A program made the translations under genes and the position numbers. The notes under the pieces were generated by a model. That model saw only the letters and a list, made by a program, of their open reading frames with translations, was not told the DNA's origin and made no database searches. From Streptomyces sp. NBC_00483 (GTDB lineage Bacteria; Actinomycetota; Actinomycetes; Streptomycetales; Streptomycetaceae), in NCBI RefSeq assembly GCF_036013745.1, contig NZ_CP107880.1:7626001-7690000 (forward strand): a stretch of DNA of 64,000 bases. Direction: 5' to 3'. Positions 5,128 to 21,026 of the stretch are shown here, one piece after another (position 1 is the stretch's first letter; each line of letters starts with the position of its first letter).

Positions 5128-5553
5128 GTGGCAACCACGCGCTCCGCACACACCGTGTGGGAAGGCAACCTGTTCGAGGGCAACGGCACCGTCACCTTCG
5201 ACTCGTCGGGCATCGGGCAGCAGCCGGTGTCCTGGCCGTCCCGCGCAGAGGAGGCGAACGGCAAGACCAGCCCGGAGGAGCTGATCGCGGCCGCGCACTC
5301 CTCCTGCTTCTCCATGGCGCTGTCCAACGGTCTGACCGGCGCGGGCACCCCGCCCACCAAGCTGGTCACGTCCGCGGACGTGACGTTCCAGCCGGGCGAG
5401 GGCATCACCGGCATCCACCTCACGGTCGAGGGCACCGTCTCCGGCCTCGACGAGCAGGGCTTCCAGGCGGCCGCGGAGGACGCCAAGAAGAACTGCCCCG
5501 TGAGCCAGGCGCTCACCGGCACGACGATCACCCTGACCGCCAAGCTGGGTTGA
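5128..5553 (+). CDS. osmC: OsmC/Ohr-family peroxidase; 3' end supplied by the integrated element
   Basis: A 141-residue OsmC-family protein that reduces organic hydroperoxides or related oxidants in the cytosol. The two redox cysteines are in AAHSSCFSMALS and KKNCPVSQAL. GTG at 5128 has a good ribosome site (GGAAAGG) about 6 bases upstream. The last 19 codons lie inside the left attachment repeat (5493-5550), so the present C-terminus (TAKLG, stop) comes from the element. The displaced native end, TAKLGG then stop, survives at the right attachment site near 21026. The insertion therefore preserves the gene with loss of one glycine. Confidence 0.9.
   Translation: MATTRSAHTVWEGNLFEGNGTVTFDSSGIGQQPVSWPSRAEEANGKTSPEELIAAAHSSCFSMALSNGLTGAGTPPTKLVTSADVTFQPGEGITGIHLTVEGTVSGLDEQGFQAAAEDAKKNCPVSQALTGTTITLTAKLG
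5493..5550 (+). repeat. Left attachment repeat (attL) in the osmC 3' end
   Basis: 58 bases matching 20969-21026 with a single mismatch (C at 5532, G at 21008). Flanking bases differ on both sides. It lies about 110 bp before the integrase start, as expected for the crossover side of a tyrosine-recombinase element. Confidence 0.93.
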
Positions 5554-5602
5554 CCAGGGAGAACACCGTTCACGGGGTGGGTTGACCAACTCCACACAGG
5601 GA

Positions 5603-5640
5603 GCTAGGCAAGCTGCTCGACAGACAGGGGCTTGCCTAGC
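5603..5640 (+). terminator. Hairpin between osmC and the integrase
   Basis: Perfect 11-bp inverted repeat GCTAGGCAAGC (5603-5613) and GCTTGCCTAGC (5630-5640) with a 16-base loop. It could end osmC transcription or act as an integrase leader element. It has no U-tract. Its position favours the GTG start at 5660 over TTG at 5582. Confidence 0.5.
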
Positions 5641-5659
5641 GACCGGACTGGGATACCCC

Positions 5660-6703
5660 GTGAACGAGCTGAGAAGCCCTCTGCGGACCGCAACGAACCG
5701 TGCCCCTGTAAGGCCCTTGGCGCTGCGCCCCGAGACGGCACAAAGCGACCCATGGAATCAGGCCAGAGCAGCCCAAGTAGATGAGCTGGTCGTGTACTTG
5801 AGTACGACGGTCAACTCGAAGGGGCGACCGTACGCCCCTCGTACCATCACGGCGTACCGGGATGCTGCCGTGTCGTTCAACACCTGGCTGACGCTGGAGG
5901 AACGGCACGAAGGTGACTTCACGACCATCACCACAGACCTGTTGAACAGGTACTTCCTGTGGTATCTGAAGACTCACTCAGGACCGGCAGCAACGAACAC
6001 CAGGCAACGCAACCTCCACCCGCTGTTCTTGTACCTCGTTGAGGACTACGGGCACCCGGACCCCTACTCAGGGCCGTTCCGCTGGTATTCCGGAGAGAGC
6101 AGCACCCCGAAGACTCTCAGCCCGGAGTTCATATCCGCGATGCTGGCTGTCACAGGCGGTGGGTCCGCCAAGATCAGGGACTTTCAGACCGTGCGGGATC
6201 ACGCCATTGTCCGTGTTCTCACAGAGGGGCTACGGGCTGAAGAACTGCTCTCGCTGACTGTGAACTCAGTGGACCTTCCCCGAGGGGTTGTCACCGTGGT
6301 GCCGCTCAAGGAAGCCAGGGCAACCGGTACAGGGCGCATCGTGCCAATCCAACCCCCAACCGTGCAGGCGGTTCGCCGTTACCTCCGTGTCCGTCAAAGC
6401 CACAAGTATTCGGAGGTTGATTGGTTGTGGCTGGGCACCCGAAACCGAGGACACCTGAAGTACAACGGCCTGTGGCGTCTGATCAAGCGTCTCGCAGAGC
6501 AGTGCGGGTATGACCCCTCGTTGTGCTCTCCACACGGGTTTCGGCATTCTTGGGCATCCGATTTGATGGAAGCCGGTATCTCGGACGGAGACATAATGCA
6601 GGCGGCCGGTTGGAAGTCGAGCGACATGCTCAGGACTTACGGCCGGGACGTGGCCGGAGATCGCGCCGTAACGGCCATTCACCGGTTGGGTAGCCGCTAC
6701 TAG
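5660..6703 (+). CDS. int: Tyrosine site-specific integrase
   Basis: A 347-residue phage-type tyrosine recombinase that catalyses insertion of the element into the osmC 3' end. The N-terminal half has a SAM-like core-binding domain (about 30-130: APRTITAYRDAAVSFNTWL, then RQRNLHPLFLYL). The catalytic domain shows the full set: Arg in TEGLRAEELLSL, Lys in VPLKEAR, HGFRHSWA (His-x-x-Arg), Trp in AAGWKSS in place of the second His, and the nucleophile Tyr near residue 327 in MLRTYGR. GTG at 5660 is chosen because an upstream TTG start would run through a stable hairpin; it lacks a strong ribosome site. No excisionase gene is recognisable nearby. Confidence 0.93.
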   Translation: MNELRSPLRTATNRAPVRPLALRPETAQSDPWNQARAAQVDELVVYLSTTVNSKGRPYAPRTITAYRDAAVSFNTWLTLEERHEGDFTTITTDLLNRYFLWYLKTHSGPAATNTRQRNLHPLFLYLVEDYGHPDPYSGPFRWYSGESSTPKTLSPEFISAMLAVTGGGSAKIRDFQTVRDHAIVRVLTEGLRAEELLSLTVNSVDLPRGVVTVVPLKEARATGTGRIVPIQPPTVQAVRRYLRVRQSHKYSEVDWLWLGTRNRGHLKYNGLWRLIKRLAEQCGYDPSLCSPHGFRHSWASDLMEAGISDGDIMQAAGWKSSDMLRTYGRDVAGDRAVTAIHRLGSRY

Positions 6704-6717
6704 CACCGGACAGCAAA

Positions 6718-6745
6718 AAGCCCCTAGACCGGCGTCTGGGGGCTT
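6718..6745. terminator. Bidirectional terminator between int and the HNH gene
   Basis: AAGCCCCTAGAC and GTCTGGGGGCTT form a stem of about 12 bp with a 4-base loop (one G-T pair) and T-rich flank TTGTTGT. It separates convergent genes. Confidence 0.8.
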
Positions 6746-6756
6746 TGTTGTGGCGT

Positions 6757-7230
6757 CTATCGCTGCTGTCGTTGCCGTGCTCCGCGACGGGCGTCAGAGT
6801 CTCTTTTGCATGTGCGGCAGTAGCGGTGACCCGCATCGTTTCGACGGGTGTTCTCATTGTCGTAGGCGTGACCCTGGGGACAGTGCGTTATCGTCCTACT
6901 GTGATGGGTGCCGTGCCGTAGACAGTCGGCCATGTTCTCCGACTTTGAACCCCACCGCAGATTCCACAGGTGGTTGTTCAGCTGATTTCCGTCACCGTGT
7001 AGTACGCACGGCTTGCCGTCCGGAGCGGGCCCGAGGAACGCAAGGGCTACCAAACGATGGACCCTGAGCGTGTATTCCTTGCCGTCCACACAAAGCTTCA
7101 CACGGGGGTACCCCTCGCTAGGTGGTGTCTTCAGCCACCGGCCCGACTTCTCGGACCACACTCGACCGTCATTTGTGATCTTGTATCCGGGCGCCCAAGG
7201 GATCTTTTGCATTCTGAGAATGGTCTCCAT
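6757..7230 (-). CDS. NUMOD4/HNH endonuclease-like protein
   Basis: 157 residues. Residues 12-27 (PWAPGYKITNDGRVWS) are a NUMOD4 signature, and residues 42-100 are HNH_3-like (LRVHRLVALAFLG, then VLHGDGNQLNNHLWNLRW, with His78 and Asn90). The C-terminus adds a small Cys cluster (CPQGHAYDNENT, then YCRTCKRD), the extra zinc knuckle common in actinophage HNH proteins. It could be a free-standing homing endonuclease or a nicking nuclease in packaging or replication. An internal ATG (MQKIPW, 7212) is a possible alternative start. It is convergent with int and reads out of the control region. Confidence 0.82.
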   Translation of the reverse strand: METILRMQKIPWAPGYKITNDGRVWSEKSGRWLKTPPSEGYPRVKLCVDGKEYTLRVHRLVALAFLGPAPDGKPCVLHGDGNQLNNHLWNLRWGSKSENMADCLRHGTHHSRTITHCPQGHAYDNENTRRNDAGHRYCRTCKRDSDARRGARQRQQR

Positions 7231-7387
7231 GCCAGGGATGAACCCTCGGAACGCAACCGAAATGCGACTTCCCTGAAACGCATCCTAAGAACGGCATGAT
7301 CACGACCCACGCAAGACCCACAGCACGTCGAATCCAGGCGAAAAGCCGCAATTAGTGAGCGGGTAACTACGTTGAGAGAGGGCGCAA

Positions 7388-7460
7388 GGTTTTCCCAGGT
7401 GGTCTAGACCACTCATTCCGAGCAAGCAAGATCATTCTCACCTGCATTGACCTGGGAAAA
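7388..7460. repeat. 12-bp inverted repeat flanking the palindrome cluster
   Basis: GTTTTCCCAGGT at 7388-7399 and its exact reverse complement ACCTGGGAAAAC at 7449-7460, arms 49 bases apart, enclosing the DasR-like site and the -35 box. It may be a pair of operator sites that supports looping. Confidence 0.65.
7398..7413. promoter_or_regulatory. DasR (dre)-like / GntR-HutC operator
   Basis: GGTGGTCTAGACCACT; positions 7399-7412 are a perfect 14-bp palindrome. It matches the published dre consensus AGTGGTCTAGACCACT at 15 of 16 bases. It sits about 34 bp upstream of the -35 box at 7447. The element encodes no GntR-type protein, so a host regulator such as DasR would be the reader. Confidence 0.6.
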
Positions 7461-7475
7461 CGTACTCCATACAGT
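7447..7475 (+). promoter_or_regulatory. Promoter-like -35/-10 pair
   Basis: TTGACC, 17 bases, then TACAGT: a good actinobacterial housekeeping match. A transcript would start near 7482, inside the adjacent palindrome, and run rightward with a leader of about 460 bases before the gene at 7943. Confidence 0.5.
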
Positions 7476-7492
7476 GTCAACCCGAGGTTGAC
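7476..7492. promoter_or_regulatory. Palindromic operator at the predicted start site
   Basis: GTCAACC-CGA-GGTTGAC, perfect 7-bp arms immediately after the -10 box. This is a typical position for repressor binding. A related inverted repeat built from the same half-sites in opposite orientation is at 12021-12038. Confidence 0.55.
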
Positions 7493-7576
7493 GACTCCAG
7501 GCTGCTTCGAATACCGCACCTATACCGGAAATGACCCCTGAAAGAGCCCTGGAGGGGCTAGGACCCTTCGACCGGT

Positions 7577-7826
7577 GGGGAAAACCATTTTCCCCGGACC
7601 CCAAGTCTCTGACCTGCGCTTTCCTCTCGTTTTTGGCCTCTGGAAGCAAAAAATGCCATTTTTCAAAAACTTCTCTCCACGACATACCCTCTTCTACATA
7701 TATAGTTTTCTAAATCTTTTTCCCATTTTCCCCTAAGTAGTATTTTTAAGGTTGTTTGTGCAGGTCAGAGGGTGTTTCGAGGTCGGGGAAAATGGCGGGG
7801 AAATGGCGGTGAAATGGGGAAAACGG
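7577..7826. repeat. Iteron-like GGGGAAAATGG repeats
   Basis: Exact GGGGAAAATGG at 7785-7795 (plus), 7585-7595 (minus) and 7723-7733 (minus). Near copies are GGGGAAAACCA at 7577, GGGGAAATGG at 7797-7806, GGTGAAATGG at 7808-7817 and GGGGAAAACGG at 7816-7826. The pair at 7577-7595 forms a perfect 8-bp inverted repeat. The last four copies are nearly contiguous. Confidence 0.65.
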
Positions 7827-7942
7827 ACGTAGAGGGACGCCACGACAGCGTTAAATGTAACGAAACGTGACGGAACGGACGCGCTTCGAGGTCGCCGGCT
7901 GGGGGAGCGCTTTCCAATCACGTACCGGGCGTTGACCCAAGC

Positions 7943-8254
7943 ATGAACACATACAAGAGCACGCTTTTTCAGACCAAGCGCATACCTGGATTCCCCAGCT
8001 ACATCGTCACCGATTCGGGAATCGTATTCGGCCCCAGGAACGGCTTCGACGAGCCCCTGAGTTCCACCCTGCGACCCGACGGGCGCCTGTGGGTCCAACT
8101 AGTCGCCCCGAACGGGACGGGCCGCCACAAGGGCATAGACAGGCTTGTCTGCATGACGTTCAACGGGCCATCGCCTACCCCGCGCACGCGGGTACGGCAT
8201 ATTGACGGAGACCCGAGGAACAACCGGGCCGAGAATCTCGTATGGGCCGCGTAG
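7943..8254 (+). CDS. Short NUMOD4/HNH endonuclease-like protein
   Basis: 103 residues: NUMOD4-like start (IPGFPSYIVTDSGIVFG), then an HNH_3 core (GIDRLVCMTFNGP, RVRHIDGDPRNNRAENLVW with the His and Asn ligands). It stops right after the HNH core, without the C-terminal zinc knuckle of the divergent HNH gene at 6757. No strong ribosome site is visible. The two HNH genes flank and face away from the control region. It could be a homing or nicking enzyme acting at that region, or a solitary selfish gene. Confidence 0.75.
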   Translation: MNTYKSTLFQTKRIPGFPSYIVTDSGIVFGPRNGFDEPLSSTLRPDGRLWVQLVAPNGTGRHKGIDRLVCMTFNGPSPTPRTRVRHIDGDPRNNRAENLVWAA

Positions 8255-8265
8255 CCGCCATGGCA

Positions 8266-8302
8266 AAGCCCCGCTACCGGGTTCGAGGCAGTAGCGGGGC
8301 TT
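8266..8302 (+). terminator. Rho-independent-like terminator
   Basis: AAGCCCCGCTAC (8266-8277) pairs perfectly with GTAGCGGGGCTT (8291-8302), 12 bp with a 13-base loop. It follows the HNH gene by 11 bases. Confidence 0.85.
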
Positions 8303-8611: not shown

Positions 8612-8629
8612 GTGGTATCATATAACCAC
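8612..8629 (+). promoter_or_regulatory. -10 region overlapped by a short inverted repeat
   Basis: TATCAT (8616-8621) lies within GTGGT-N8-ACCAC (8612-8629), about 50 bases before the ribbon-helix-helix gene at 8679. The layout suggests autoregulation by that protein. The -35 box is poor. Confidence 0.4.
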
Positions 8630-8678: not shown

Positions 8679-8861
8679 ATGCCTGAACAGCGATCGAATC
8701 CAGCAAACACCAAACGAACTGTAATGCGATTCCACTGTCCCGCATGGCTACAGGAAGCCATCGTGGAGGCGTGCAACGAATATGAAATGTCCGCTAGCGA
8801 ATACGTCCGCATGGTTCTCACCAAGGACCTGTCCGCCCGAGGGTTCTTCGAGAACAAGTGA
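8679..8861 (+). CDS. Ribbon-helix-helix DNA-binding protein
   Basis: 60 residues. Residues 16-50 (VMRFHCPAWLQEAIVEACNEYEMSASEYVRMVL) give a beta strand followed by two helices, the MetJ/Arc/CopG fold; the strand residues would read the DNA major groove as a dimer. The ribosome site AAGGGA is about 8 bases upstream of ATG. It lies 28 bases before the helicase gene and probably forms an operon with it, so it may control copy number or replication in the way small plasmid CopG proteins do (inference). An antitoxin role is less likely because no toxin gene is adjacent. Confidence 0.7.
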   Translation: MPEQRSNPANTKRTVMRFHCPAWLQEAIVEACNEYEMSASEYVRMVLTKDLSARGFFENK

Positions 8862-8889: not shown

Positions 8890-10464
8890 ATGAGTAAGAC
8901 CATCATCACAGTTGGTAAGAATCACGAGTATGACCTGGTCGGGCCGCCGTTGGGTGAAGGTGTACCCGGTGCACTGAACGACCAGGACGTTACTCCAGAG
9001 CAGTTTGAGAAATACCAAAGGATGTTCCCCAACGTCCGCGTCAGGCGCTGGTCTGACAGTGGCCTTGCGGAAAGGGTGATTGATCTTTACGGAGACCGCA
9101 TCCGCTACAACCCCGCCTTCAAGACCCACTACGTGTGGAACGAGGAGACGCGGCTTTGGCAAGAGACCGACCACGGGGCGTTCGTACACCTTGTGGGGAA
9201 GGTCATTACGGAGCACCTCCCTTGTGAGGATCTGTTCTACAGCGAAGCCAAGGTGGAGCGTGGGGGGAAGCTCGTAAGTGAGCGGGACGACTTCCGCAGA
9301 TGGCGTCGAAGCGTGGACACGGAAGCCCGCTTCAACGCAGTGGCGCGGTTCCTAACCAGCTTCCCGGAGCTACGCATAACGTTGGACGATTTCGACAAGG
9401 ACCCTTGGACTCTCAACACCCCGAACGGCGTGATCGATATGCGTGAACGCAGCCGGTCACCGCGCCCCGCCGAGCCCGGAGACATGCTTACCCGTGTGAC
9501 GGGCGTGGGTATCGACGAGGTAGGGACGGAGCCATTCGAGTTTGAGAAGTTCTTGCACCTGGTGCAGCCCAACCCGGAGCACCGCAAGTACCTACAGGTA
9601 CTGCTCGGTATGGCCGCGTATGGCGACCCCGGTGAGCACATGTTCGTGTTCCACCAGGGAGAGGGCGGAAACGGCAAGGGTGTGCTTCTGAGGCTCTTGA
9701 ATATGGTCCTGGGGGACTACTACCGGACGGCCTCACGAACGGGCCTCACAGTGGCAGGTAACACCTTTGAAGAGTCGACGTGGCCCGGTGTTCGTCTACT
9801 CGTCGGGGACGAGATGGGTAACGCGGACCTTGACCAGAACAAGCTCAAGGACCTTACGGGTGGTGGCCAGATCATGGCGAACGCCAAACACAAGCCACAC
9901 GCTCCGTTCACGCCCAGGTTCTCTCTGCACCTCTGTGGGAACGAGTGGCCCACGCTGGCCAACACGGATTCAATCGAGCGCCGCTATCGCCCTGTGGCCT
10001 GGACGGTAAAGCCGTCGAGCGACGAATGGGCGCAGTTCCAGCGGAACGGCCAGAAGGACCCTGCCGACTACCTGTTTGAGGAGGAGGGGGAACAGATCCT
10101 CTCTTGGATTCTGGCCGGATACCTGACGTACAGGGTCCACGGCCTCAACGTGCCTCAAGATCTTCAGGACATGGCCGCCGAACAGTTGCTAGCCAATGAC
10201 TCGGTGACCCTTTTCGCGACATCATGCCTTGTGGCCGATGACGGGTGGGACGACGACAGCGCAGACGGTTGCTTCAAAATCTCGCAGAAGGAGATGTACT
10301 CGCAGTACAAGAGGTGGTGTCGACAGGCTGGACACACTGCGCAGGGGGTTAAGCAGTTCAACCGGGATCTGAGAAAGTGCGCATCCGGGCTTGGTTTCGC
10401 TCACAACGCTTCACGCGGGCGCCCGGCATGGGTCGGCGTGCGGTATGAGGAGTCCGACGACTGA
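8890..10464 (+). CDS. P4/D5-type SF3 replicative helicase (primase-helicase family)
   Basis: 524 residues. Residues about 55-230 fit the D5_N region (LYGDRIRYNPAFKTHYVWNE). The SF3 helicase core follows: Walker A GEGGNGKG at about 256-263, Walker B LLVGDEM near 303, motif C HLCGNEWP near 346 and an Arg-finger region SIERRYRP near 360. The C-terminus (MYSQYKRWCRQAGHTAQGVKQFNRDLRK) is a winged-helix type DNA-binding tail. No archaeo-eukaryotic primase active site is apparent, so it should unwind the origin and may rely on host primase. ATG at 8890 is chosen for GAGGAGG 8 bases upstream. This is the element's replication gene. Confidence 0.9.
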   Translation: MSKTIITVGKNHEYDLVGPPLGEGVPGALNDQDVTPEQFEKYQRMFPNVRVRRWSDSGLAERVIDLYGDRIRYNPAFKTHYVWNEETRLWQETDHGAFVHLVGKVITEHLPCEDLFYSEAKVERGGKLVSERDDFRRWRRSVDTEARFNAVARFLTSFPELRITLDDFDKDPWTLNTPNGVIDMRERSRSPRPAEPGDMLTRVTGVGIDEVGTEPFEFEKFLHLVQPNPEHRKYLQVLLGMAAYGDPGEHMFVFHQGEGGNGKGVLLRLLNMVLGDYYRTASRTGLTVAGNTFEESTWPGVRLLVGDEMGNADLDQNKLKDLTGGGQIMANAKHKPHAPFTPRFSLHLCGNEWPTLANTDSIERRYRPVAWTVKPSSDEWAQFQRNGQKDPADYLFEEEGEQILSWILAGYLTYRVHGLNVPQDLQDMAAEQLLANDSVTLFATSCLVADDGWDDDSADGCFKISQKEMYSQYKRWCRQAGHTAQGVKQFNRDLRKCASGLGFAHNASRGRPAWVGVRYEESDD

Positions 10465-10792: not shown

Positions 10793-11098
10793 ATGTTCAA
10801 TAAGCAGAACAAGGAAGACAGGAAAGCCGCAAAGGAGACCGTGAAGGACCAGAAGGGGTCGGTAGAAGATCTCTCAATCACGATCATTCGCACCACCCGG
10901 CTGGACGCCGGTTTCGCAGACTGCAAGTGGGGGATAACCAACGGCTACGGCTATCTCGTCAAGGCCGGAGTTTTCCCCGGTTATAACCGGACCCTGACGC
11001 ACGCTAGGAAGGCGGCTGACAAGCTCCGGGCCAAGGCGGGACTAGAGCCCCTGGAGTATGCCGTGAAGACCGTGAACGCGGTTCGTACGGTCTCGTGA
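10793..11098 (+). CDS. Small protein of unknown function
   Basis: 101 residues, not recognised. The first 25 residues are very charged (Lys/Asp/Glu: NKQNKEDRKAAKETVKDQKG), followed by a compact alpha/beta region (ITIIRTTRLDAGFADCKWGI) and a basic helix (HARKAADKLRAKAG). ATG at 10793 has the ribosome site AAGGAAGG upstream; an upstream in-frame start at 10736 would add a tail without such a site. It overlaps the next gene by ATGA, so the two are translationally coupled. A nucleic-acid-binding role is possible but unsupported. Confidence 0.6.
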   Translation: MFNKQNKEDRKAAKETVKDQKGSVEDLSITIIRTTRLDAGFADCKWGITNGYGYLVKAGVFPGYNRTLTHARKAADKLRAKAGLEPLEYAVKTVNAVRTVS

Positions 11099-11609: not shown

Positions 11610-11990
11610 ATGTCGAATGTTGAAGTAACCCCGAACTATCTGACCGTGGACACGTCCACCCCCGAGCCAGCAGGGCAAGCCGTCGGTACCGGTGACACCG
11701 CCGTACTCACTCCCGACGAGCACAAGCCTTTCAAGGGCCGGTATCTGCTCATCCGCATGAAGGAAAGTGGCTCTGTGGCCACCTCTACCGCCACCGTCAA
11801 GGCAGGCGACCGCGCTTCACAGCACGTTCGCGGTGACCGTACCGCCGAGACGTTCACGTCAGGTCAAGTCAAGTATGTACAGGTCGACTTGAACCGGTAC
11901 CTCCAGGCCGATGGAAGCGTCCACATCGACGTGGGCGGCGTCAGCGGATCGGTGACCTTCACGGTCATCCAACTGAGCAACCGCACCTGA
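11610..11990 (+). CDS. Small beta-rich virion-like protein (decoration/capsid-associated?)
   Basis: 126 residues, starting at ATG 11610 with GAAAGG upstream. It is almost all predicted beta: GRYLLIRMKESGSVATSTATVKAGD, then QVKYVQVDLNRYLQADGSVHIDVGG and VTFTVIQL. The TVKAGD ... DLNRYLQADGSVHIDV ... FTVIQL layout resembles small head-decoration or capsid-associated proteins of tailed phages, a resemblance by pattern only. It has no signal peptide or Cys. It is the only candidate head-type protein in the element. A non-structural role cannot be excluded. Confidence 0.45.
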   Translation: MSNVEVTPNYLTVDTSTPEPAGQAVGTGDTAVLTPDEHKPFKGRYLLIRMKESGSVATSTATVKAGDRASQHVRGDRTAETFTSGQVKYVQVDLNRYLQADGSVHIDVGGVSGSVTFTVIQLSNRT

Positions 11991-12132: not shown

Positions 12133-12504
12133 ATGCAGTTCATCAAAAATCACGAGACCCCGCCCATCTGGCCGGATGAGGTCGCCGCAGCGATCTGCGA
12201 TCCCAACGAGGACTTTGGCGACGGGCCTGCCCCCGCCGACTATGACCCGTACGAGAACTACTTCCTGAACGACGCTTGGGCCAACAAGATCGGATCGTTC
12301 GACTCGCTCTATCTTCAGCAGTTCCGACCGTCCGAACCTTGTGGGTGTGGCCAGGAGTTCGACACAGCGGCCGTGTTCGTGATCCACGCCGAGGACTGTC
12401 TCCAGGCGCCGGAGTACCGCTACGAGCCCGCCTACCGGGCGATCTTCACTCGCAGGTCTTTCCTAGCCTCACAGCGCGCGCTCAGCGCCAAGGTCGGTGA
12501 GTGA
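12133..12504 (+). CDS. Zinc-finger protein, first of a paralogous pair
   Basis: 123 residues. Residues 69-89 (PCGCGQEFDTAAVFVIHAEDC) form a Cys-x-Cys ... His-x3-Cys finger with ligands C70, C72, H85 and C89. The same finger recurs in the next gene. The acidic first half (PDEVAAAICDPNEDFGDGPAP, then YDPYENYFLNDAW) is unlike its partner. It starts a train of five genes joined by 4-bp overlaps. The function is unknown; small zinc fingers of this kind in phage-like elements often bind host polymerase or nucleic acid. Confidence 0.65.
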   Translation: MQFIKNHETPPIWPDEVAAAICDPNEDFGDGPAPADYDPYENYFLNDAWANKIGSFDSLYLQQFRPSEPCGCGQEFDTAAVFVIHAEDCLQAPEYRYEPAYRAIFTRRSFLASQRALSAKVGE

Positions 12505-12794
12505 CCGTGGATTTCATCGTGATCAACCGTGACGCGGTGCTCGACGAGTCGCTGTCCGATATCGAGCTTGCCCACCACTTCAAACCCGCTCGCCCCTGTG
12601 ACGACTGTGGCCAGGCGTTTGAAACGGCGGCCTTGTACATCGCCCATCACGCCGACTGCCCTGGGCTGGCTTTCAGTTCAACACCGTTCGAGTTCCACAG
12701 CGCCACCGAAATTGAGGCCTCCCGCCGCTGGCGAGATGGCGTCGTACGCGCTCTCACAGCACCTGCCACTTTTTGGGGAGGCAACACCAAATGA
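12501..12794 (+). CDS. Zinc-finger protein, second of a paralogous pair
   Basis: 97 residues, GTG start overlapping the previous stop (GTGA). The finger PCDDCGQAFETAALYIAHHADC (residues 32-53: C33, C36, H49, C53) aligns closely with the first paralogue: both read PC..CGQ.F.TAA...H...DC. This points to tandem duplication followed by divergence outside the finger. Here the first pair is CxxC, whereas the upstream copy has CxC. Unknown function. Confidence 0.62.
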   Translation: MTVDFIVINRDAVLDESLSDIELAHHFKPARPCDDCGQAFETAALYIAHHADCPGLAFSSTPFEFHSATEIEASRRWRDGVVRALTAPATFWGGNTK

Positions 12795-13147
12795 AGAACA
12801 CAGAAAACCACCGCAAGCACCCCGTACATGACCTGTCTGTAGACATCACCACTGGTGACATGACGACCGGCTTCTACTACGCCTTTTACAACGTCGACAC
12901 CAAGCGGAAGTACGTGACGATCGACTTCGTCCAGCACGAGCTTTCTCGACTTGTCGTCGAGTGCTTCCTGGACCGGGAGTTGACTGCCGACGAGCACGTC
13001 CACCACCTCAACGGACAGACCGCCCAGGACAGCATCGCGAACCTGGAAGTCCGCGACTACGCCGAGGAACTTCCTCCCGTCGGCACTGTGCCGACGCCGA
13101 CGTTCAACTTCAACAAGTCACCCAAGAAGCTGGGGGTTTGGTCATGA
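12791..13147 (+). CDS. HNH-like protein (third in the element)
   Basis: 118 residues, ATGA overlap with the previous gene. Residues 67-87 (ADEHVHHLNGQTAQDSIANLE) match the HNH_3 core, with H71/H72, N74 and N84 as candidate metal and catalytic residues. No NUMOD4 domain is present; the N-terminal part (YYAFYNVDTKRKYVTIDFVQHELSRLVV) supplies the strand and helix that precede such cores. It may be a nuclease or nickase, and its place inside a coupled operon argues against a freshly inserted homing gene. Confidence 0.6.
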   Translation: MKNTENHRKHPVHDLSVDITTGDMTTGFYYAFYNVDTKRKYVTIDFVQHELSRLVVECFLDRELTADEHVHHLNGQTAQDSIANLEVRDYAEELPPVGTVPTPTFNFNKSPKKLGVWS

Positions 13148-14049
13148 CCGACGTTTTCGATTCTCTACGAAAGGCCGACCCCGAGCGCGAGGCGACCGAA
13201 GCGGCAAGGGCAGCCGGTCGACAGAGCAAGCTCGCAAAGGCCGGAGCGCTCGCCCAGGGTGATCTGGAAGCCGCCGCGATAATCGAAGTCGACCGTATCG
13301 AGGCGCAGTTGAAGGCCGCGGAGGAGGCGGAAGGTGAGATGCTGTTCCGGCTCACATCGGGGACCGGCGCCCCTGTGAAGCGGGAGGCTCTTGAACAAGC
13401 CCGGCGTGACGTCGACTTCTTCGCGAAGCAACTCGTCGGCGCGGGTGCCAAGCTCGACCGTGCCAGGGACGAGATGCGTCGCCGCGAACTGGCGCAACTG
13501 GCCAAGGAAGTCGCGGAGTTCGCCGACAGCCCCAGCTCGCCGGCTCGCCGCGCAAGCAAGGCGTACAGGGCCGCTGACGAAGCCCTCCGAGAAGCCCTTG
13601 CTGCTGTGGAGGAGCACAACAGTGCAGTAGCAGCCTTCAAGCTCCGTGCACGCGAGCTGGACGCCAAGGAGAGCCGAGGGCCCGCCTATCCGGCTGAGCC
13701 TGTGGCGTTCGACTTCAGCAAGCTGGTCAGTGGTCCATACGTCCTTGACCGGGTCGATGGGCGCCAAATGGCCGCGTACGTGGTGAACATCGTGAACCCG
13801 GACATCGACACTCGCCCCCACGGACGGGCCGTCACGCACCCGTACAAGGACGTTGGCGCTCTGGCGTCCGTTGTCTCGGGGGTCTGCAACCGGAAGATGC
13901 CTGACGCCGAGCGCCTCTACTACCGCGACGCAGACGGCTATAGCTTCGCGTTCGACCAGGCGCCCGGCCTAGTCGAGGTCGCTAACAAGGGCCTGTCGAA
14001 GATCTCCCACGATGACGTCTGGGACTGGAACCGGAAGGCTCGCCGATGA
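13144..14049 (+). CDS. Coiled-coil protein of unknown function
   Basis: 301 residues, ATGA overlap on both sides. Residues 1-190 are a long charged helix (EREATEAARAAGRQSKLAKAGA, RIEAQLKAAEEAEGEMLF, LDRARDEMRRRELAQLAKEVAEF) rich in Ala/Glu/Arg, probably a coiled coil. Residues about 200-301 are a globular domain (FDFSKLVSGPYVLDRVDGRQ, then NRKMPDAERLYYRDADGYSF). It is placed just before the tape-measure gene, where tail-assembly chaperones or scaffold-like proteins often lie, so an assembly role is plausible. No frameshift slippery site links it to the next gene. Confidence 0.55.
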   Translation: MTDVFDSLRKADPEREATEAARAAGRQSKLAKAGALAQGDLEAAAIIEVDRIEAQLKAAEEAEGEMLFRLTSGTGAPVKREALEQARRDVDFFAKQLVGAGAKLDRARDEMRRRELAQLAKEVAEFADSPSSPARRASKAYRAADEALREALAAVEEHNSAVAAFKLRARELDAKESRGPAYPAEPVAFDFSKLVSGPYVLDRVDGRQMAAYVVNIVNPDIDTRPHGRAVTHPYKDVGALASVVSGVCNRKMPDAERLYYRDADGYSFAFDQAPGLVEVANKGLSKISHDDVWDWNRKARR

Positions 14050-14366
14050 GTGAGATCAACGTCTACAACGTCGGCGACGACGACACGGGCTATCAACCGC
14101 CAAAAATTCCCGATGTGGTCACACAGGAATGGATCAACGAGGCCAGTCCGGCCGAGATGATGCTAGCGGCGAGTCAGGGCAAGCTCCGAGGGTCCGGCGC
14201 CTACGCGGTGCCGGTCGACCCCAACGAGAAGCCCCAGAAGCCGTTCCGGCCGTTCGCTCCCGAGCCTACGGGCCCGACGATTACGCGAGATGACCTCAAG
14301 CGCATGAGCACCGAGGACATCAACCGCGCGTACGCCGAGGGCCTACTCGACGATCTCCTCTACTGA
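14046..14366 (+). CDS. Small phage-type protein
   Basis: 106 residues, coupled to the coiled-coil gene by ATGA. The C-terminus ITRDDLKRMSTEDINRAYAEG, ending DDLLY, is a motif type seen at the C-termini of many actinophage structural-region proteins (xDLKxMxxExIxxAxxxGxLDDLL). The middle is proline-rich (KPQKPFRPFAPEPTGP). It is the last gene of the train; a terminator begins 5 bases after the stop. The exact role is unknown. Confidence 0.55.
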   Translation: MSEINVYNVGDDDTGYQPPKIPDVVTQEWINEASPAEMMLAASQGKLRGSGAYAVPVDPNEKPQKPFRPFAPEPTGPTITRDDLKRMSTEDINRAYAEGLLDDLLY

Positions 14367-14607: not shown

Positions 14608-17600
14608 ATGAGCGAAGTAGCCAGGCTCTCGATAACCGTAAATGCCAATACCCGAAGGGCCGTCACTGAACTCGCCTCACTGGACGCCGTTGTCAGGCGA
14701 ACCGGTGACTCGATGTCCCGTCACTCGGCCGTCATGGACCGTCAGCGCGACACCATCAACCGGCTTTCACAGAGCCACAGTCGACTGTCCGGGGTTACCC
14801 GTCGGAATTCCGGCGACATGGACCGCCTCGGGAACGCCACAGACAACAGCTCTGGCCACATGGGGCGATTCGCCAAGATAGTTGTGGCTACGTCCGTAGC
14901 CGCTACTGCACTGTTCCCTGTGATGCAGGGTGGTCTCGCCGTCATAGGTGGTCTGACCAGCGCCTTTACCCTCGCCGGCTCGGCGGCAACAGTGTTCGGC
15001 ATAGCCGTTACGTCCTACCTGAAGAACACGAAACAGGGACAGGCCGAACTCACCCGGTTGAGCCAGGCATTCGACAAGTTCGGGAAGTCGACTGCCGGGT
15101 TCGTATCCCAGCCGGTTCACACGTTCTTCTCGGGCCTGGTTCGATCTCTCCGTAACCTTGTACCCCTTGTGGCCGCAGTAGCCCCGGTAGCCAACAAGGT
15201 TGCTGAGGCCTTCCACAAGTGGTCCGGTACGCGACTTCAGCAATGGGTCTCGTTCATTGCATCCAAGGGCGTCCCTATCCTCGCGCACTTCGTGTCTATA
15301 GGTAGGTCCCTGGGCAAGACGTTCGGCGCGGCTGTAATTCAGTTCCAGCCGTTCGGTACAACGATCCTGAGCGTCCTGGACAAGGGCGCTGCTGCAATGG
15401 CCCGTTGGGCCCAAGGCGGCGGTTTCTCGGCCTTCATGCAGACTGTCCATGCGAACGGTCCCATGGTCGCCAACTTCTTCAAGACCCTGTGGCAGGCCCT
15501 TAGCAACATCACACAGGCAATGAGCATTCTCGGCCCGCTCGGGCTCGGCCTTACGACGATGTTCCTGAAGCTGATCGCGGTTCTGCCTCCGCAAGTCCTC
15601 GCCCTGATGGCTGTGGGAATCAGCGCTATTGCTATCGCCACAAAGCTTTGGAAGATCCAACAGCAGGGTCTGAACCTGACGATGCTGGCTTCCCCGTTCT
15701 TCTGGGTCGTTGCAGCAATCGTCGGACTGGTAGCGGCAATTGTGTGGGTGGCTACCAAAACGACTTGGTTCCAGACGGCATGGAAGTACACGTGGAATGC
15801 CATCAAGGCCGCTACTAGCGCCACGCTGAACTTCCTGAAATCCATATTCCACACAGTGATCAACTTCCTCACTGGTAAGTGGGGTTGGCTGATTGCAGTG
15901 ATCGGCCCTGTGGGTTGGCTGATTGCCCTCGGGGCTCACTGGCGTCAAGTCTGGGGCTTTGTAAAGGCCGTTGGCCAGGCAATCTGGAATTTCCTTAAGC
16001 GTGCCTGGTCCGGAACGGTCAACTTCTTCCGCAATGCAGCGAACGCGCTGAGCGGAGCCGTCCACCGTATTTGGTCCTCTCTGTGGAACTGGGCCAAATC
16101 AAAAGCCTCTGCTGTTTGGAACTGGCTAAAGGGTGCGTGGTCTCGGACCACAGGCGCTCTCCGTAATTCAGCCCGCTGGGTTAGCGGCGCCGTGACCGGA
16201 ATTTGGCGCGGCCTGTGGAACTGGGTCGGAGATAAGGCCAAGGCGGTCTGGAACTGGGTTCTGGACAGGGCCAAGAGTTTCGGCAAATCCATCATCAGCC
16301 GGTTCAAGGACATCAAAGACAAGATCGGCGATGCCTGGAACAAGCTGAAGTCTATCTTCAAGGCGCCGGTCAAATTCCTGATCGATGTTGTCATCAACAA
16401 GGGAATTATCGGCTCGGCTAACTGGCTGATCGATAAGCTTGGTGGCGGTAAGAACACCATTAAGCCGGTCAAGTCCCCCAAGGGGTTCGCCACTGGTGGT
16501 TACACCGGTAATGGCGGGAAGTACACCCCCGCCGGTGTTGTTCACCGTGGCGAGTACGTTCTGAACAAGGAATCTACTGCCAAGATCGGTGTTAACCGAC
16601 TTCACCACATGAACCGTACCGGTCAGGTGCCTGGCTACGCCAAGGGCGGATTTGCCGGAATGGAGCAGAGTTTCCCGAAGATTGCGTCTCTAAAGAGCAC
16701 CATCTCTGCAAACAAGAAGAGCGAAGGCAACGTCGAGAAGTTTCTCGACTTCGGGGCCAGCGCTCTAGGCTTCGGTGCAGCCGTCGATATCAAGGACGTT
16801 CTTAAGGGGGCCGGTAAGTGGATCGGCAACGTCAAGGGCGCGGCGGGTAGTCTCGGCGGCATCATGGGTCCGATCTTCAAAGGACTTGTCGGCAAGCTGT
16901 GGCCGCTTCTGAAGGAAGTGTTCAAGTCCGTCTTTGAAGCTAACCAGGCGACCGGTAACGGCTATGTTGCGGGTCCGGACTGGAAGGGGGGAGACGGAAA
17001 CCGGGTTTCGTACCATGGCGCCACCATGGACGCGTACACGATGCGTCTGCTCAAAAAGGCCGAGAGCATTTACGGTGCGCTGTTCAGTATCTCGCAGGGC
17101 TCGTTCCACGCGGGCGTGGGCGCCTCTGCGGGTACCCACGATGGTGGTGGTGTCGTTGACATCGCGCAGCATTCCAACAAGGTTGTTGGCGCTCTGCGCG
17201 CGTCAGGCTTCGCGGCCTGGGCACGTACACCGTCTGAAGGTTTCTCACCCCACACGCACGCTGTAGCTGTGAAGGACAAGCTTCTTTCTCCGCAGGCGCG
17301 TAACCAGGTATCGGACTTCTTCAAGGGTCGCAACGGCTTGGCGGACAACGGTCCTGACACCTACACCCCTCCGGGTGGTGGCAAGGGTTCGTCCAAGGGT
17401 TCCAACCGTTCCATCGTGTCCCGAGTTCTGGCCGAGCTTCACCAAAGTCAGAGCAACATCGACAACGTGATGCGGGCCATCAACAAGGAGTCTGGCGGCA
17501 ACCCTCGGGTTGTCAACAACTGGGACAGCAACGCCCGACGGGGAACCCCCTCAAAGGGCCTCCTACAGGTCATTGACCCGACGTTCAAGGCTTACGCAGG

Positions 17601-17967
17601 TAAGTACAAGAACCGTTCGATCTTTGACCCGTACGCCAATATCTACGCAGCTATCAACTACGCCATGCACACATATGGCTCAGGTTGGTCCGCTCGTATG
17701 GCCCGGCCGGGAGGCTATGCAACCGGCGTTCGCAACGCCCCTCGCGGGCTCGCGTGGGTCGGCGAGAATGGTCCGGAGCTGATGAACTTCCGAGGCGGGG
17801 AGAGCGTTACTCCGAACCGGCAGTCACTGGCTATCGCAGGGTCCGGTGGAGGAGACATCATCGTGAACATCAGTCTCAACGGTGCGAACCTCGCTAGCTC
17901 ACGACAGATAGAAGACGCTGTGGTTGCCGCTATTGAGTCAGCTAAGCGAAAGGGTCGGAGGATCTAA
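14608..17967 (+). CDS. Tail tape-measure protein with two peptidoglycan-hydrolase domains
   Basis: 1,119 residues; ATG 14608 with AAAGGA upstream. The first 90 residues are a polar helix (LSRLSGVTRRNSG). Hydrophobic segments lie at about 88-137, 365-390 and 425-445, as in siphophage tape measures that insert in the host membrane. Trp-rich repeats (WNWLKGAWSR, LWNWVGDKAKAVWNWV) follow, then the typical FATGGYTGNGGKYTPAGVVHRGEYVL. About 820-885 is an M15-like peptidase (AGTHDGGGVVDI ... SPHTHAVAV), and about 945-1040 a lytic transglycosylase (INKESGGNP with catalytic Glu, KGLLQVIDPTF, NIYAAINY). In a complete phage it sets tail length and opens the cell wall. Here no other tail gene is present. 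Confidence 0.92.
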   Translation: MSEVARLSITVNANTRRAVTELASLDAVVRRTGDSMSRHSAVMDRQRDTINRLSQSHSRLSGVTRRNSGDMDRLGNATDNSSGHMGRFAKIVVATSVAATALFPVMQGGLAVIGGLTSAFTLAGSAATVFGIAVTSYLKNTKQGQAELTRLSQAFDKFGKSTAGFVSQPVHTFFSGLVRSLRNLVPLVAAVAPVANKVAEAFHKWSGTRLQQWVSFIASKGVPILAHFVSIGRSLGKTFGAAVIQFQPFGTTILSVLDKGAAAMARWAQGGGFSAFMQTVHANGPMVANFFKTLWQALSNITQAMSILGPLGLGLTTMFLKLIAVLPPQVLALMAVGISAIAIATKLWKIQQQGLNLTMLASPFFWVVAAIVGLVAAIVWVATKTTWFQTAWKYTWNAIKAATSATLNFLKSIFHTVINFLTGKWGWLIAVIGPVGWLIALGAHWRQVWGFVKAVGQAIWNFLKRAWSGTVNFFRNAANALSGAVHRIWSSLWNWAKSKASAVWNWLKGAWSRTTGALRNSARWVSGAVTGIWRGLWNWVGDKAKAVWNWVLDRAKSFGKSIISRFKDIKDKIGDAWNKLKSIFKAPVKFLIDVVINKGIIGSANWLIDKLGGGKNTIKPVKSPKGFATGGYTGNGGKYTPAGVVHRGEYVLNKESTAKIGVNRLHHMNRTGQVPGYAKGGFAGMEQSFPKIASLKSTISANKKSEGNVEKFLDFGASALGFGAAVDIKDVLKGAGKWIGNVKGAAGSLGGIMGPIFKGLVGKLWPLLKEVFKSVFEANQATGNGYVAGPDWKGGDGNRVSYHGATMDAYTMRLLKKAESIYGALFSISQGSFHAGVGASAGTHDGGGVVDIAQHSNKVVGALRASGFAAWARTPSEGFSPHTHAVAVKDKLLSPQARNQVSDFFKGRNGLADNGPDTYTPPGGGKGSSKGSNRSIVSRVLAELHQSQSNIDNVMRAINKESGGNPRVVNNWDSNARRGTPSKGLLQVIDPTFKAYAGKYKNRSIFDPYANIYAAINYAMHTYGSGWSARMARPGGYATGVRNAPRGLAWVGENGPELMNFRGGESVTPNRQSLAIAGSGGGDIIVNISLNGANLASSRQIEDAVVAAIESAKRKGRRI

Positions 17968-17976
17968 AAAGCGCGA

Positions 17977-18024
17977 AAAACCCGTCTCTCCTGTGGAAGC
18001 CATCCACAGTGGGGCGCGGGTTTT
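17977..18024 (+). terminator. Nested-hairpin terminator
   Basis: AAAACCCG (17977-17984) pairs with CGGGTTTT (18017-18024), enclosing CTGTGGA/TCCACAG. It follows the tape-measure stop by 10 bases. Confidence 0.8.
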
Positions 18025-18259
18025 GCCGTTTAAAGGGGCCTGTACGGCCGCCTGAGCGCCTTTAAGGGGTCGGTGCGTGTAGTTGGTCGCGCGGCGCGTA
18101 CGCGGCCTGCTAGCGGGCTCACAGAGGACAAGGGGTATCCCTCTGTGAACCCGCCGCTTGTGATCCGGACGCCCGAGGCTTCGCCGTCGTCACCCGGGCG
18201 CCCGGAATCCTTGGGCCGTGGCGGCAAGCTAGTGCCTTGTGGACTGATCGGGCCGAGCG

Positions 18260-18460
18260 TCAAGCCGCCTTGCCGGGGCATTCGCCGTAGTGGCGGTATG
18301 GCCCTGGTGCCGGTGGCCCCGAGGGGCGGTCGACAGCCAGTCGCCACACGCGGTCGAGAGCCTTGATCTCCTGTCGACAGAAGGCGCATTTCTCGCCCGC
18401 TGGCGCGAACGTCACGTACTCGCCCTGCCTGGCGTCTGTGGTGTCTGTGGTTGCAGCCAT
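18260..18460 (-). CDS. 66-residue Cys-rich protein
   Basis: Start ATG at 18460 with AGGAG about 9 bases upstream. Residues 20-60 hold EKCAFCRQEIKALDRVWRLAV then YRHYGECPGKAA, a CxxC ... His ... Cys zinc-binding pattern. It is oriented opposite to the tape-measure gene and divergent from the XRE gene at 18572, with a 111-base promoter region between them. Similar short zinc proteins accompany XRE/NUDIX pairs in some Streptomyces elements, but I cannot name a family. Confidence 0.55.
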   Translation of the reverse strand: MAATTDTTDARQGEYVTFAPAGEKCAFCRQEIKALDRVWRLAVDRPSGPPAPGPYRHYGECPGKAA

Positions 18461-18537
18461 GTCCCCGACTCCTCTTGCTCCCTGGGGGTCCAGGGTGTGG
18501 CCGGTCGCTGGGACGGGGGTACCTCGTACGTTTCCCA

Positions 18538-18554
18538 CTTGGGGACGTCCCAAG
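18538..18554. promoter_or_regulatory. Operator-like inverted repeat before the XRE gene
   Basis: CTTGGG-GACGT-CCCAAG, with further ACGTCCC copies at 18545-18551 and 18564-18570. It sits 17 bases before the ATG at 18572, which has no ribosome site, so that gene is probably transcribed leaderless. Confidence 0.45.
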
Positions 18555-18571
18555 GGTGCTAGAACGTCCCT

Positions 18572-19343
18572 ATGGCTGCTAACGAACGCCTCCGGGCATC
18601 CATGACCGGTGGGGGGTGGACCCATGCCACGCTCGCCGAGCAAGTCGGCATAGATCCCAAGAGCGTTGAGCGTTGAGCGTTGGGTGAATCTGGGCCGGGT
18701 ACCGCGACGGACCACAGCCCACAGAGCCTCGGAGATCCTGGGCGAGGACGTACACGCCCTCTGGCCCTCACTCCGTCAGGCGCGTAACGCTAGGGCCGTG
18801 AGTCCAGAACTGGTCGCCCTGTACGAGCGTCGCGCCGATCTGCCCGTGTCGGCGTTCATTGACCTCATCTCGGCCGCTCGCTCGCGGGTGGACATCCTCG
18901 TCTACGCGGGGGTGTTCTTGCATGAGGCGTATCCGGGCCTGAACGATCTTCTGGCGCGGGTCGCCGGCTCGGGTGGCCAGGTGCGCATCGCGGTGGGGGA
19001 CGCCGACTCAACGAACGTCCGAGCGCGTGGACTTGAAGAAAAGTTCGGGCATGGCATCGAGTCGCGTTGCCGACTGGCCCTCATGCACTACATGCCGCTT
19101 GTCGGGACTCCGGGGGTCGAGGTCCGGACGCATTCGACCACCCTCTACAACTCGCTCTATCGCGTCGATGACCAGATGTTCGTCAATGCCCACGTGTGGG
19201 GCGTGAACGCCTACGGTGCCCCCGTCTGGCACCTGCGGCGAGCCGAGGGCGGGACCATGTTCGCCACGTACTCCGATTCATTCGATGCCGTCTGGGCAAC
19301 CGGAACCCCCACCCCTGTGGCTACGACTACGGAGGTCAGCTAA
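18572..19343 (+). pseudogene. XRE/DUF5919-like regulator, frameshifted by a heptamer repeat
   Basis: Frame one starts at 18572 (MAANERLRASMT, then THATLAEQVGIDPKSVER) and stops at TGA 18674-18676. Frame two continues the same protein (SVERWVNLGRVPRRTTAHRA, then ILGEDVHALWPSLRQAR) from 18666 to 19343. The cause is visible: GAGCGTT occurs three times in tandem (18661-18681), where two copies would read KSVERW without a break. The C-terminal part (LISAARSRVDILVYAGVFLHE, HVWGVNAYGAPVWHLRR) is DUF5919-like, a ligand or effector domain next to an HTH. It could be off by phase variation rather than dead; TTG 18666 could also give a form without its HTH. It overlaps the NUDIX start by TAATG. Confidence 0.75.
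18661..18681 (+). repeat. Tandem heptamer GAGCGTT x3
   Basis: Three exact copies of GAGCGTT. Two copies restore the reading frame of the overlapping regulator. Confidence 0.9.
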
Positions 19344-19813
19344 TGGCGCGCACGGAGTACTACGACGACCCGGACGCCCCGAAGCCGAACAGCATGGTTG
19401 TGGCGGCCTCTGCGGTCGTGCTCGACGAGCAAGGCCGGGTGCTGCTCCAGAGGCGCGCAGACAGCGGCCTGTGGGCCTTGCCGGGCGGCGGGATGGAACT
19501 GGGGGAGTCCCTGCCGGGGTGTGCCGTCCGGGAGGTCAAGGAAGAGACCGGGCTCGACGTCGAGATCACAGGGCTTGTCGGCACCTACACCGATCCGCGA
19601 CACATCATCGCTTACACCGATGGCGAGGTGCGGCGGCAGTTCAACATCTGTTTTACGGCCCAGATCGTCGGCGGGTCCCTTGCGATTTCCGATGAATCCA
19701 CAGAGCTGCGGTTCGTCGCTGTGGGCTCGATTCCCTCGCTCGACATGCACCACACACAGCGTCTACGCCTTGAGCACTACGCCGCCCGCCGTTCCGGGCC
19801 GTATCTCGGGTGA
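19343..19813 (+). CDS. NUDIX hydrolase, possibly a Pif-like immunity protein
   Basis: 156 residues, start ATG coupled to the XRE gene through TAATG. The NUDIX box is complete: GGMELGES, then REVKEETGLDV (G-x5-E-x7-REUxEExGU). It should bind Mg and hydrolyse a nucleoside diphosphate linked to some moiety; the substrate is unknown. In the Streptomyces integrative element pSAM2, the NUDIX-motif protein Pif gives immunity against redundant transfer. The location of this gene near the right end of an integrated element, beside a regulator, fits an exclusion role, but that is inference. Metabolic housekeeping is the alternative. Confidence 0.85.
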   Translation: MARTEYYDDPDAPKPNSMVVAASAVVLDEQGRVLLQRRADSGLWALPGGGMELGESLPGCAVREVKEETGLDVEITGLVGTYTDPRHIIAYTDGEVRRQFNICFTAQIVGGSLAISDESTELRFVAVGSIPSLDMHHTQRLRLEHYAARRSGPYLG

Positions 19814-20020
19814 TTTTCGGAATGTGGACTTCCCCGCGCGGTGAGGTCACCTAGACTTCAGCTTCTGTGAGGCCGTGGACCCACCGGAGTGGCGGGTACC
19901 TAGTCGCAGAGTTCAGGCCCCGGACCTTGTGGCCGTCCTGATGAACGAGCGGCGGTCTAACGGTGCCGAGGGAACTTCTTCAGGGCGAATTACCCTTGGC
20001 ACCCCTACTCGTGAACGCAA

Positions 20021-20074
20021 AAATACCCGCCTTCCACAGAGAGAGTATGGGCTCTCCGTGAATTGCGGGTATTT
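20021..20074 (+). terminator. Terminator of the XRE/NUDIX unit
   Basis: AAATACCCGC (20021-20030) and GCGGGTATTT (20065-20074), 10-bp stem enclosing a smaller GAGAG/CTCTC hairpin. Confidence 0.7.
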
Positions 20075-20637
20075 CTGTTTAGGGCGAGGCATCGTCCTAG
20101 AAAGGGTTCCCAACGGCCAGCCGTGAAGTGAGCCATTGTGAACTAGTTCCCATTCTATCAGCCGCTAAGCCATTTCCTTCAAGATCATTTAGGAATTGGT
20201 CTCTGGGATTTTATTCGACCTCGCCTTTGTGTGATCTGTGTCACATTCACCTTTTGAGGCTTGGGTTTAACGAGGTGTCACCGCGCAATATACCCAGGGG
20301 GGCCATTTAGGACTTATTAACTATCGACCTGGGGTCTCGATAACCACATGAGCGACTCAATCTGTGGAATGTCGACGTAATCGAGACGAGATCTCTGATC
20401 TCTCATCGACCGACAGTCGCGCTCGTCGAGTCGCGAATCAATCATGTCGTGACCAGGAAGAACGTCCGAACGGTGCGCTTCAGGATTCCTACGTTTCAAA
20501 GACGAGACATCCGAAACACCTTGGAATCGTATGACCTAAGCTCGCGTTTCCGCAGTAAACGTTCCGCGCTGCCTGTGAGACAGGTACGTGAACTGATCAC
20601 ATAGATGATGTGAACTCAATCGAGAATCGATCAACGA

Positions 20638-20830
20638 CATGACATGACGAACACAACACGATGAACATGATGATGACGAACATGAATGATTGAACGCGAT
20701 GATGAATGAATGAGATCACGAACAACTCAACACGAATGAACCAAAGAGAACTGTGAACGAACTGAACGAATGAACTAACTCAACGAACCTGAATCAACAC
20801 AACGAGTAAGAACAACTGAGACAACAACAA
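20638..20830. repeat. Low-complexity ATGA/GAAC-rich tract
   Basis: About 14 copies of ATGA in the first 150 bases plus many GAAC and CAAC words. TGA stops occur in several frames. The plus strand is A-rich with few self-complementary runs, so an RNA copy would be nearly unstructured. Confidence 0.7.
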
Positions 20831-20968
20831 CGCGTAACTGTGTGGATACACAGAACCAACAGCGCCATTGCGTGTCAGACCACAGTGAGCCTGAGCAACA
20901 TGAGGGTCACCAAAGGTAGGGGTGTCTGTACGTGGGTATGTCCGAGTAATGTGGGGGTTGCACGCAAC

Positions 20969-21026
20969 CTGCCCCGTGAGCCAGGCGCTCACCGGCACGA
21001 CGATCACGCTGACCGCCAAGCTGGGT
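20969..21026 (+). repeat. Right attachment repeat (attR)
   Basis: 58 bases matching 5493-5550 with one mismatch at 21008. It is followed by GGCTAG, completing the displaced native OsmC C-terminus (TAKLGG, stop). No start codon or promoter serves this remnant. Confidence 0.93.

Follow-up and report, generated by a model that had tools for sequence, protein, structure and literature searches.

A Streptomyces integrated element that probably reprograms both the head and the tail of a helper siphophage

Why would an integrated element carry a complete phage tape-measure protein (TMP) when no other part of a tail can be recognized in it? This question is raised by a 15.5-kb element in Streptomyces sp. 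NBC_00483, located at 5493..21026 of the 64,000-nucleotide stretch of DNA analyzed here (the window; contig NZ_CP107880.1, positions 7,626,001 to 7,690,000), which comes from a 10.2-Mb genome in one contig. We conclude that the element is probably an integrated phage satellite that reprograms the head and tail of a helper siphophage. Such rebuilding of helper particles is probable because the element encodes its own TMP, a probable head-coat protein (g7), and a scaffold-like protein (g12). The features that carry the argument are listed below by window position, where E denotes the E value of a profile match.

5493..5550, plus strand, attL core at the osmC 3′ end (57/58 identity to 20969-21026)
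5582..6703 (start may be 5660), plus strand, tyrosine integrase (PF00589, E 2.4e-23)
8890..10464, plus strand, superfamily 3 (SF3) helicase of the P4 family (TIGR01613; D5_N, E 1.6e-22; phrog_1156, E 1.3e-75)
11610..11990, plus strand, g7, predicted decoration-like head auxiliary beta protein (capsid-gene adjacency of relatives, beta model)
13144..14049, plus strand, g11, 301 residues (relatives in two other Streptomyces strains; low-confidence helical model)
14046..14366, plus strand, g12, 106 residues, phage-scaffold-like C-terminus (profile match)
14608..17967, plus strand, TMP, 1,119 residues, with SLT and (by eye) M15-like domains (phrog_167, E 2.1e-70)
17968..18030, plus strand, terminator-like hairpin directly behind TMP (-31.5 kcal/mol, z -4.1)
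20969..21026, plus strand, attR core, direct repeat partner of attL

Results

The element is a discrete insertion at osmC

The extent given in the original prediction is borne out, in that both ends coincide with the outer ends (5493 and 21026) of a 58-bp direct repeat with a single mismatch. This repeat is the 3′ end of osmC (OsmC, PF02566, E 1.4e-18 on that gene), and the left osmC copy now has its stop codon supplied by element sequence. A dnaK/Hsp70 gene (PF00012, E 1.8e-239) lies to the right of the element. We fetched 10 loci with joined flanks, one of which is from the same genome, and in six of the remaining nine (L162-L166 and L170; L numbers denote comparison loci) osmC is followed by an Hsp70/dnaK gene, with a gap of about 1 kb in L165; dnaK was not seen in L167-L169 within the stretch examined. 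The G+C fraction is about 0.70 outside the element and 0.50-0.67 inside it. The repeat, the osmC-dnaK adjacency in relatives, and the drop in G+C therefore establish the 15.5-kb element as a discrete insertion.

Both replication and integration genes named in the original prediction are present. The helicase scores 134.1 bits against a TIGR01613 cut-off of 108.7; no primase domain was seen in it, and its phrog_1156 match begins at profile position 365. Integration at a defined site, here osmC, with its own integrase and helicase genes is a general property of phage satellites, as is an incomplete set of virion and packaging genes. The host genome contains 11 integrase matches, including that of the element itself.

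The tape measure is intact and shares its distribution with g11

The TMP reads without internal stops from an ATG at 14608 and has the 1,119 residues given in the original prediction. Among 7,999 candidates scored, 51 relatives were found at E <= 1e-60, of which the nearest are 99% identical (1,119 residues, assigned to Streptomyces sp. NBC_00006) and 63% identical (1,174 residues, SDT5-1), followed by the next at 43%. The TMPs of the three strains form one clade (Shimodaira-Hasegawa-like approximate likelihood ratio test support of 100) in a quick-search tree of 26 TMPs, for which a careful tree search is unfinished.

The five ORFs (open reading frames) from g8 to g12 are joined in four 4-base steps, wherein the start of each overlaps the preceding stop; thus, the g11 start overlaps the end of g10, and its stop overlaps the start of g12. 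Among 8,000 candidates scored, relatives of g11 were found only in NBC_00006 and SDT5-1 (89% and 63% identity), and its divergence in the latter matches that of TMP. Because relatives of both proteins occur in the same two strains, TMP and g11 have, judging from sequence, apparently travelled together as intact genes. Behind TMP, none of 200 shuffled sequences folded as well as the hairpin at 17968..18030, which a separate scan for consensus terminators did not list.

g7 resembles a head auxiliary protein

Searches with g7 recovered 40 relatives besides itself. A tblastn search against named phage records gave no match at E <= 0.01, and the distant PHROGs family that g7 matches (phrog_24894, E 4.3e-6) is of unassigned function. 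In the five viral loci fetched by means of g7 alone, the major capsid gene precedes the g7 relative by 66-373 bp, with a small frame between the two in L029 and L033. In the 86 loci that have this capsid gene, g7 matched 26 times at E <= 1e-3, each time 15-373 bp behind the capsid gene. Discounting L052 and L054, which duplicate contigs counted elsewhere, and L116 and L118, which seem to be copies of L115, leaves 22. In the 81 loci that were retrieved otherwise than through g7, the presence of the capsid gene is a consequence of how they were chosen; its adjacency to g7 is not.

The predicted structure of g7 is a confident beta fold (predicted local distance difference test score of 87). Its four matches at E <= 0.001 in a viral library are all uncharacterized phage proteins of 115-129 residues. 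From the position of its relatives and this model, g7 is predicted to be a decoration-like head auxiliary protein.

Two of the five loci fetched by g7 alone carry a TMP relative further on, with the match in L030 covering both ends of the protein and that in L029 covering residues 1-76 only. The L030 module runs in the order terminase, portal, scaffold, capsid, g7, tail tube, chaperone, TMP. A small ORF, HNH-like by eye, is located between the tail chaperone and TMP in this contig (14273-14755 of L030).

g12 ends like a phage scaffold

PHROGs returned a marginal scaffold match over the C-terminus of g12 (phrog_2592, E 0.049). When its last 40 residues were compared with all ORFs of 43 loci, the best nonself matches were the C-termini of four scaffold genes, the best being gp26 of the Streptomyces phage phiSASD1 (E 2.2e-5), followed by the scaffolds of L033, L032, and L030 (E 0.024, 0.071, and 0.28, which singly are not significant). 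A scaffold C-terminus profile was built from the ORF just before the capsid gene, which was available in 83 of the 86 loci. L100 and L113 were dropped as visibly wrong, and g12 was excluded, giving 65 nonidentical C-termini from 81 loci. All 10 of the scaffolds tested (L030 and nine others) match PHROGs head scaffolding families.

Against this hidden Markov model, g12 reaches 29.7 bits (E 8.8e-9 in a search of 387 window ORFs), with the next ORF at 6.6 bits and the best of 2,000 shuffles at 7.4 bits. Only three others among 5,651 ORFs not labelled scaffold exceed 9 bits (in L129, L100, and L113), and these match head scaffolding families in PHROGs, the third weakly. By eye, the segment is LTRxDLKxMS-like and is without RIIK. 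By its sequence, g12, a self-standing ORF, ends like phage scaffolds; a C-terminus shared with the scaffold is what CpmB of the Staphylococcus aureus pathogenicity islands (SaPIs) uses to grip the coat protein. The prior description of TMP as the only clear tail gene thus stands, but TMP is not the only virion-assembly gene, since g7 and g12 appear to be head-assembly genes.

Virion, packaging, and conjugation families are absent

Pfam and PHROGs searches of all called genes, and NCBIfam searches of ten proteins, revealed no terminase, portal, capsid, tail-tube, lysis, or conjugation family, in agreement with the original prediction. Hidden capsid, portal, or terminase genes were looked for, and none was found. 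Ten antisense frames, including a 432-residue frame antisense to TMP (14767-16065), gave no PHROGs match, and the five of these searched in Pfam gave no family. Two matches were set aside as domain overlaps: a portal-profile match, wherein a NUDIX stretch lies inside the profile and no portal gene is indicated, and a match of endolysin phrog_971 to TMP. The same database searches detected no FtsK/TraB-type translocase or relaxase family, and we rejected an actinomycete integrative and conjugative element (AICE) or other conjugative element as the identity of this DNA.

Other features of the element

The remaining genes are as follows.

6757..7230, minus strand, HNH homing endonuclease, probably a selfish passenger (phrog_1492, E 1.2e-49; PADLOC homing-endonuclease model)
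7943..8254, plus strand, HNH_3 protein (PF13392, E 2.8e-10)
8679..8861, plus strand, 60-residue possible DNA-binding regulator, weak (phrog_25971, E 0.0063; phrog_876 repressor, E 0.038)
10793..11098, plus strand, g6, no assigned family (sub-threshold Pfam match only; no NCBIfam family)
12133..12504, plus strand, g8, Cys/His pattern by eye (no family in Pfam, PHROGs, or NCBIfam)
12501..12794, plus strand, g9, sub-threshold zf-C2H2 match (E 0.021)
12791..13147, plus strand, g10, HNH-like, weak (phrog_959, E 8.4e-5)
18666..19343, plus strand, g14, cargo-like (26-28% matches near related integrases)
19343..19813, plus strand, NUDIX hydrolase, cargo-like (PF00293, E 1.9e-20)

Relatives of g14 at 26-28% identity lie near four of 12 other Streptomyces tyrosine integrases (L151, L153, L154, and L158), so g14, which may have a shortened N-terminus, may recur as cargo. 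In the region 7389-7826, CCATTTTCCCC / GGGGAAAATGG recurs in several exact inverted copies of 11-12 bp, and a three-copy tandem array of an 11-bp unit is present at 7784-7817; the region is a candidate origin or operator of the element. At the other end, 19814-20968 comprises 1,155 bp without convincing genes (G+C fraction 0.51), including a T-poor, GAACGAAC-rich stretch at about 20640-20800 and weak direct repeats that adjoin attR. A dispersed repeat is present right beside attR (21035-21226), where a 401-base flank query yields 26 matches in the same genome, several with 96-97% identity over about 100 bases.

Discussion

A model for helper reprogramming

We infer the helper, the packaging, and the particle make-up from the parts that the element carries. 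A helper siphophage with a phiSASD1/L030-type head would infect the cell, whereupon the element would excise and replicate by using its own helicase. The g12 protein would present the coat protein with a C-terminal hook like that of the helper scaffold and so redirect head assembly, much as CpmB does in SaPI1, and g7 would decorate the resulting head. Given the gene overlap and the need of CpmB for CpmA, g11 is a possible partner of g12. The satellite TMP would displace that of the helper to give chimeric tails, in which the helper's tube, chaperone, and tip are built on a satellite ruler; this ruler would determine tail length and contribute its own wall-cutting domain. The satellite would gain particles filled preferentially with its DNA, and tails independent of the helper TMP. 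The original prediction of a re-specified helper tail fits these data and has an experimental precedent in Vibrio cholerae. Because the element also has head-assembly parts, head and tail are both likely targets.

Several observations weigh against this reading. We recognized neither a packaging signal nor a small terminase or tail chaperone gene in the element, and its long noncoding gaps (698 and 1,155 bp) could mean partial decay. No helper is known: the host genome gave no capsid-profile match of this type (two of two other genomes were positive) and no phiSASD1-type terminase (four of four positive), other prophage types not having been searched. SaPI1 heads are normal with CpmB alone, without CpmA, according to the available text of the study (PMC6893505), and no link between g11 and CpmA was seen. 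In NBC_00006 and SDT5-1 we saw only g11 and TMP, the neighborhood being unread, and no strain named SDT5-1 is among the g7 relatives. Related integrases occur in 12 of 246 other genomes, in regions without the remaining element genes and never beside osmC. The full element is known from one genome.

Since no phiSASD1-type prophage is resident, the helper would be an infecting phage, as it is for the satellites of V. cholerae. Two other Streptomyces genomes (L172 and L173) contain phiSASD1-type prophages (terminase 59-63%, portal 65-67%). In both, the capsid gene is followed closely by a weak g7-like match, and these prophages are candidate helper relatives.

Alternative explanations

A decayed prophage that lost most structural genes and kept TMP, g7, and a scaffold piece by chance would explain why these three proteins all resemble one type of phage module, and would accommodate both the long gaps and the possible shortening of g14. 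We nevertheless consider it unlikely. Full-length open frames for TMP and g11 occur in all three strains despite identities as low as 63% (63-99% and 63-89%), g12 stands as an ORF of its own, the ORFs g8-g12 overlap tightly, and a strong hairpin lies behind TMP. Gene order was likewise tested against that of a contracted prophage: the element has g7, g8-g11, g12, and TMP, whereas a phage module has scaffold, capsid, g7, tail tube, and TMP, an order that deletions alone do not convert into the one observed.

Quite improbable, in our judgment, is a satellite or defense island in which TMP, g7, and g12 are decoys that spoil the assembly of an infecting phage rather than parts of a satellite particle. 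Interference with tail assembly is a known defense, as described in the available portions of PMC11364771 and, for Rta of PLE11, PMC12987554. A lone scaffold hook could poison head assembly, and the host genome has no resident helper of the type expected. Yet a full-length TMP that retains both ends and its SLT domain exceeds the needs of a decoy, the element carries integration and replication genes, and PADLOC, when applied to ten proteins, reported only homing-endonuclease models and the NUDIX candidate PDC-S07. An autonomous minimal phage with unrecognized capsid and packaging proteins could draw on g6, g8, g9, and g11, which are without assignment, but we give this idea almost no credence. 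Apart from the integrase, the helicase, and TMP, the largest called gene is g11, and because unassigned genes thus reach at most 301 residues, there is no room for a large terminase or portal; no tube or tip gene was recognized either.

Comparison with known satellites

The element has a close counterpart in the phage-inducible chromosomal island-like elements (PLEs) of V. cholerae. The original prediction did not regard it as typical for a satellite to have its own TMP while missing the remaining tail genes; a precedent now exists in the March 2026 description of TMP-carrying PLE satellites with chimeric tails (PMC12987554, available text, as for the statements on PLE virions and tail genes that follow). 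Because these were published, the principle is already known. In PLE11 virions, the satellite TMP replaces that of the helper, tails are about 10 nm shorter, and heads are modified; deletion of tmp lowers transduction by about 99.9% (PLE11), 96% (PLE1), and 99% (PLE4). Like PLE1, PLE4, and PLE11, the element is integrated, has its own TMP, and lacks most of a tail. The PLEs differ in encoding a tail chaperone, in the baseplate hub protein of PLE11, and in the contractile tail of their helper. The element, which has tmp, gave no chaperone (tac) or hub family match in Pfam or PHROGs, although short chaperones can escape profiles. It is further distinguished by siphophage-type TMP families, scaffold-C-terminus and decoration-like proteins, and a Streptomyces host. 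This comparison is with published descriptions of the PLEs. PLE integrases are large serine recombinases, whereas that of the element is a tyrosine recombinase of family PF00589.

The likeness to SaPI1 lies in a small protein with the coat-binding C-terminus of a scaffold and an adjoining second gene. In the available text of the SaPI1 reports, the last 16 residues of the 80alpha scaffold bind coat protein and CpmB uses the same segment (PMC5644958), and small heads require CpmA as well (PMC6893505). Host and helper differ, the RIIK motif of CpmB is not in g12, whose C-terminus fits another scaffold type, and g11 is not known to be CpmA-like. No small terminase or packaging module of the kind found in SaPIs and other phage-inducible chromosomal islands (PICIs) gave a family match in the databases searched, small terminases being divergent.

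A single satellite, P4, combines a P4-family SF3 helicase with a head-size factor (its size scaffold) and a protein that decorates the head (PMC7552001, available text), as the element may. The element helicase differs in having no visible primase domain. Sid, Psu, and Delta gave no Pfam match at E 0.1, a Pfam model for each not being confirmed to exist. P4 is not known to carry a TMP.

MulchRoom and MiniFlayer are, like the element, Streptomyces satellites of siphophages, but they have their own terminase, portal, capsid, and scaffold, while key replication genes are missing from them (PMC10690885, available text), the reverse of what we observe; the word "tape" does not occur in the available text of that paper. 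Capsid-forming PICIs (cf-PICIs) share predicted tmp genes with the element (PMC12987554, Extended Data Fig. 10 legend) and differ in making their own heads and packaging (PMC10690885, available text), whereas no capsid, portal, or terminase was recognized here. No TMP-carrying Streptomyces satellite was found in the literature searched, which excluded most subscription papers and bioRxiv preprints.

We tentatively entertain the further possibility that the element belongs to a Streptomyces satellite lineage of its own, one that reprograms both virion ends with a scaffold hook, a head decoration, and a tail ruler plus a private partner, g11, having reached the PLE strategy independently against siphophages of a Gram-positive host. 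If this were true, it would suggest that supplying proteins that nucleate or measure assembly is a general satellite principle.

With this element, satellite-made tape measures would reach beyond Vibrio to Streptomyces siphophages, and a TMP would be joined in one element by a scaffold mimic resembling CpmB and a decoration-like protein. The analysis also points to a likely helper type, with phiSASD1-like heads, and makes testable the proposal that satellites take over assembly via nucleating and measuring proteins rather than shells and tubes. Relative to known systems, it is a Streptomyces instance of the TMP-satellite principle with a different set of parts.

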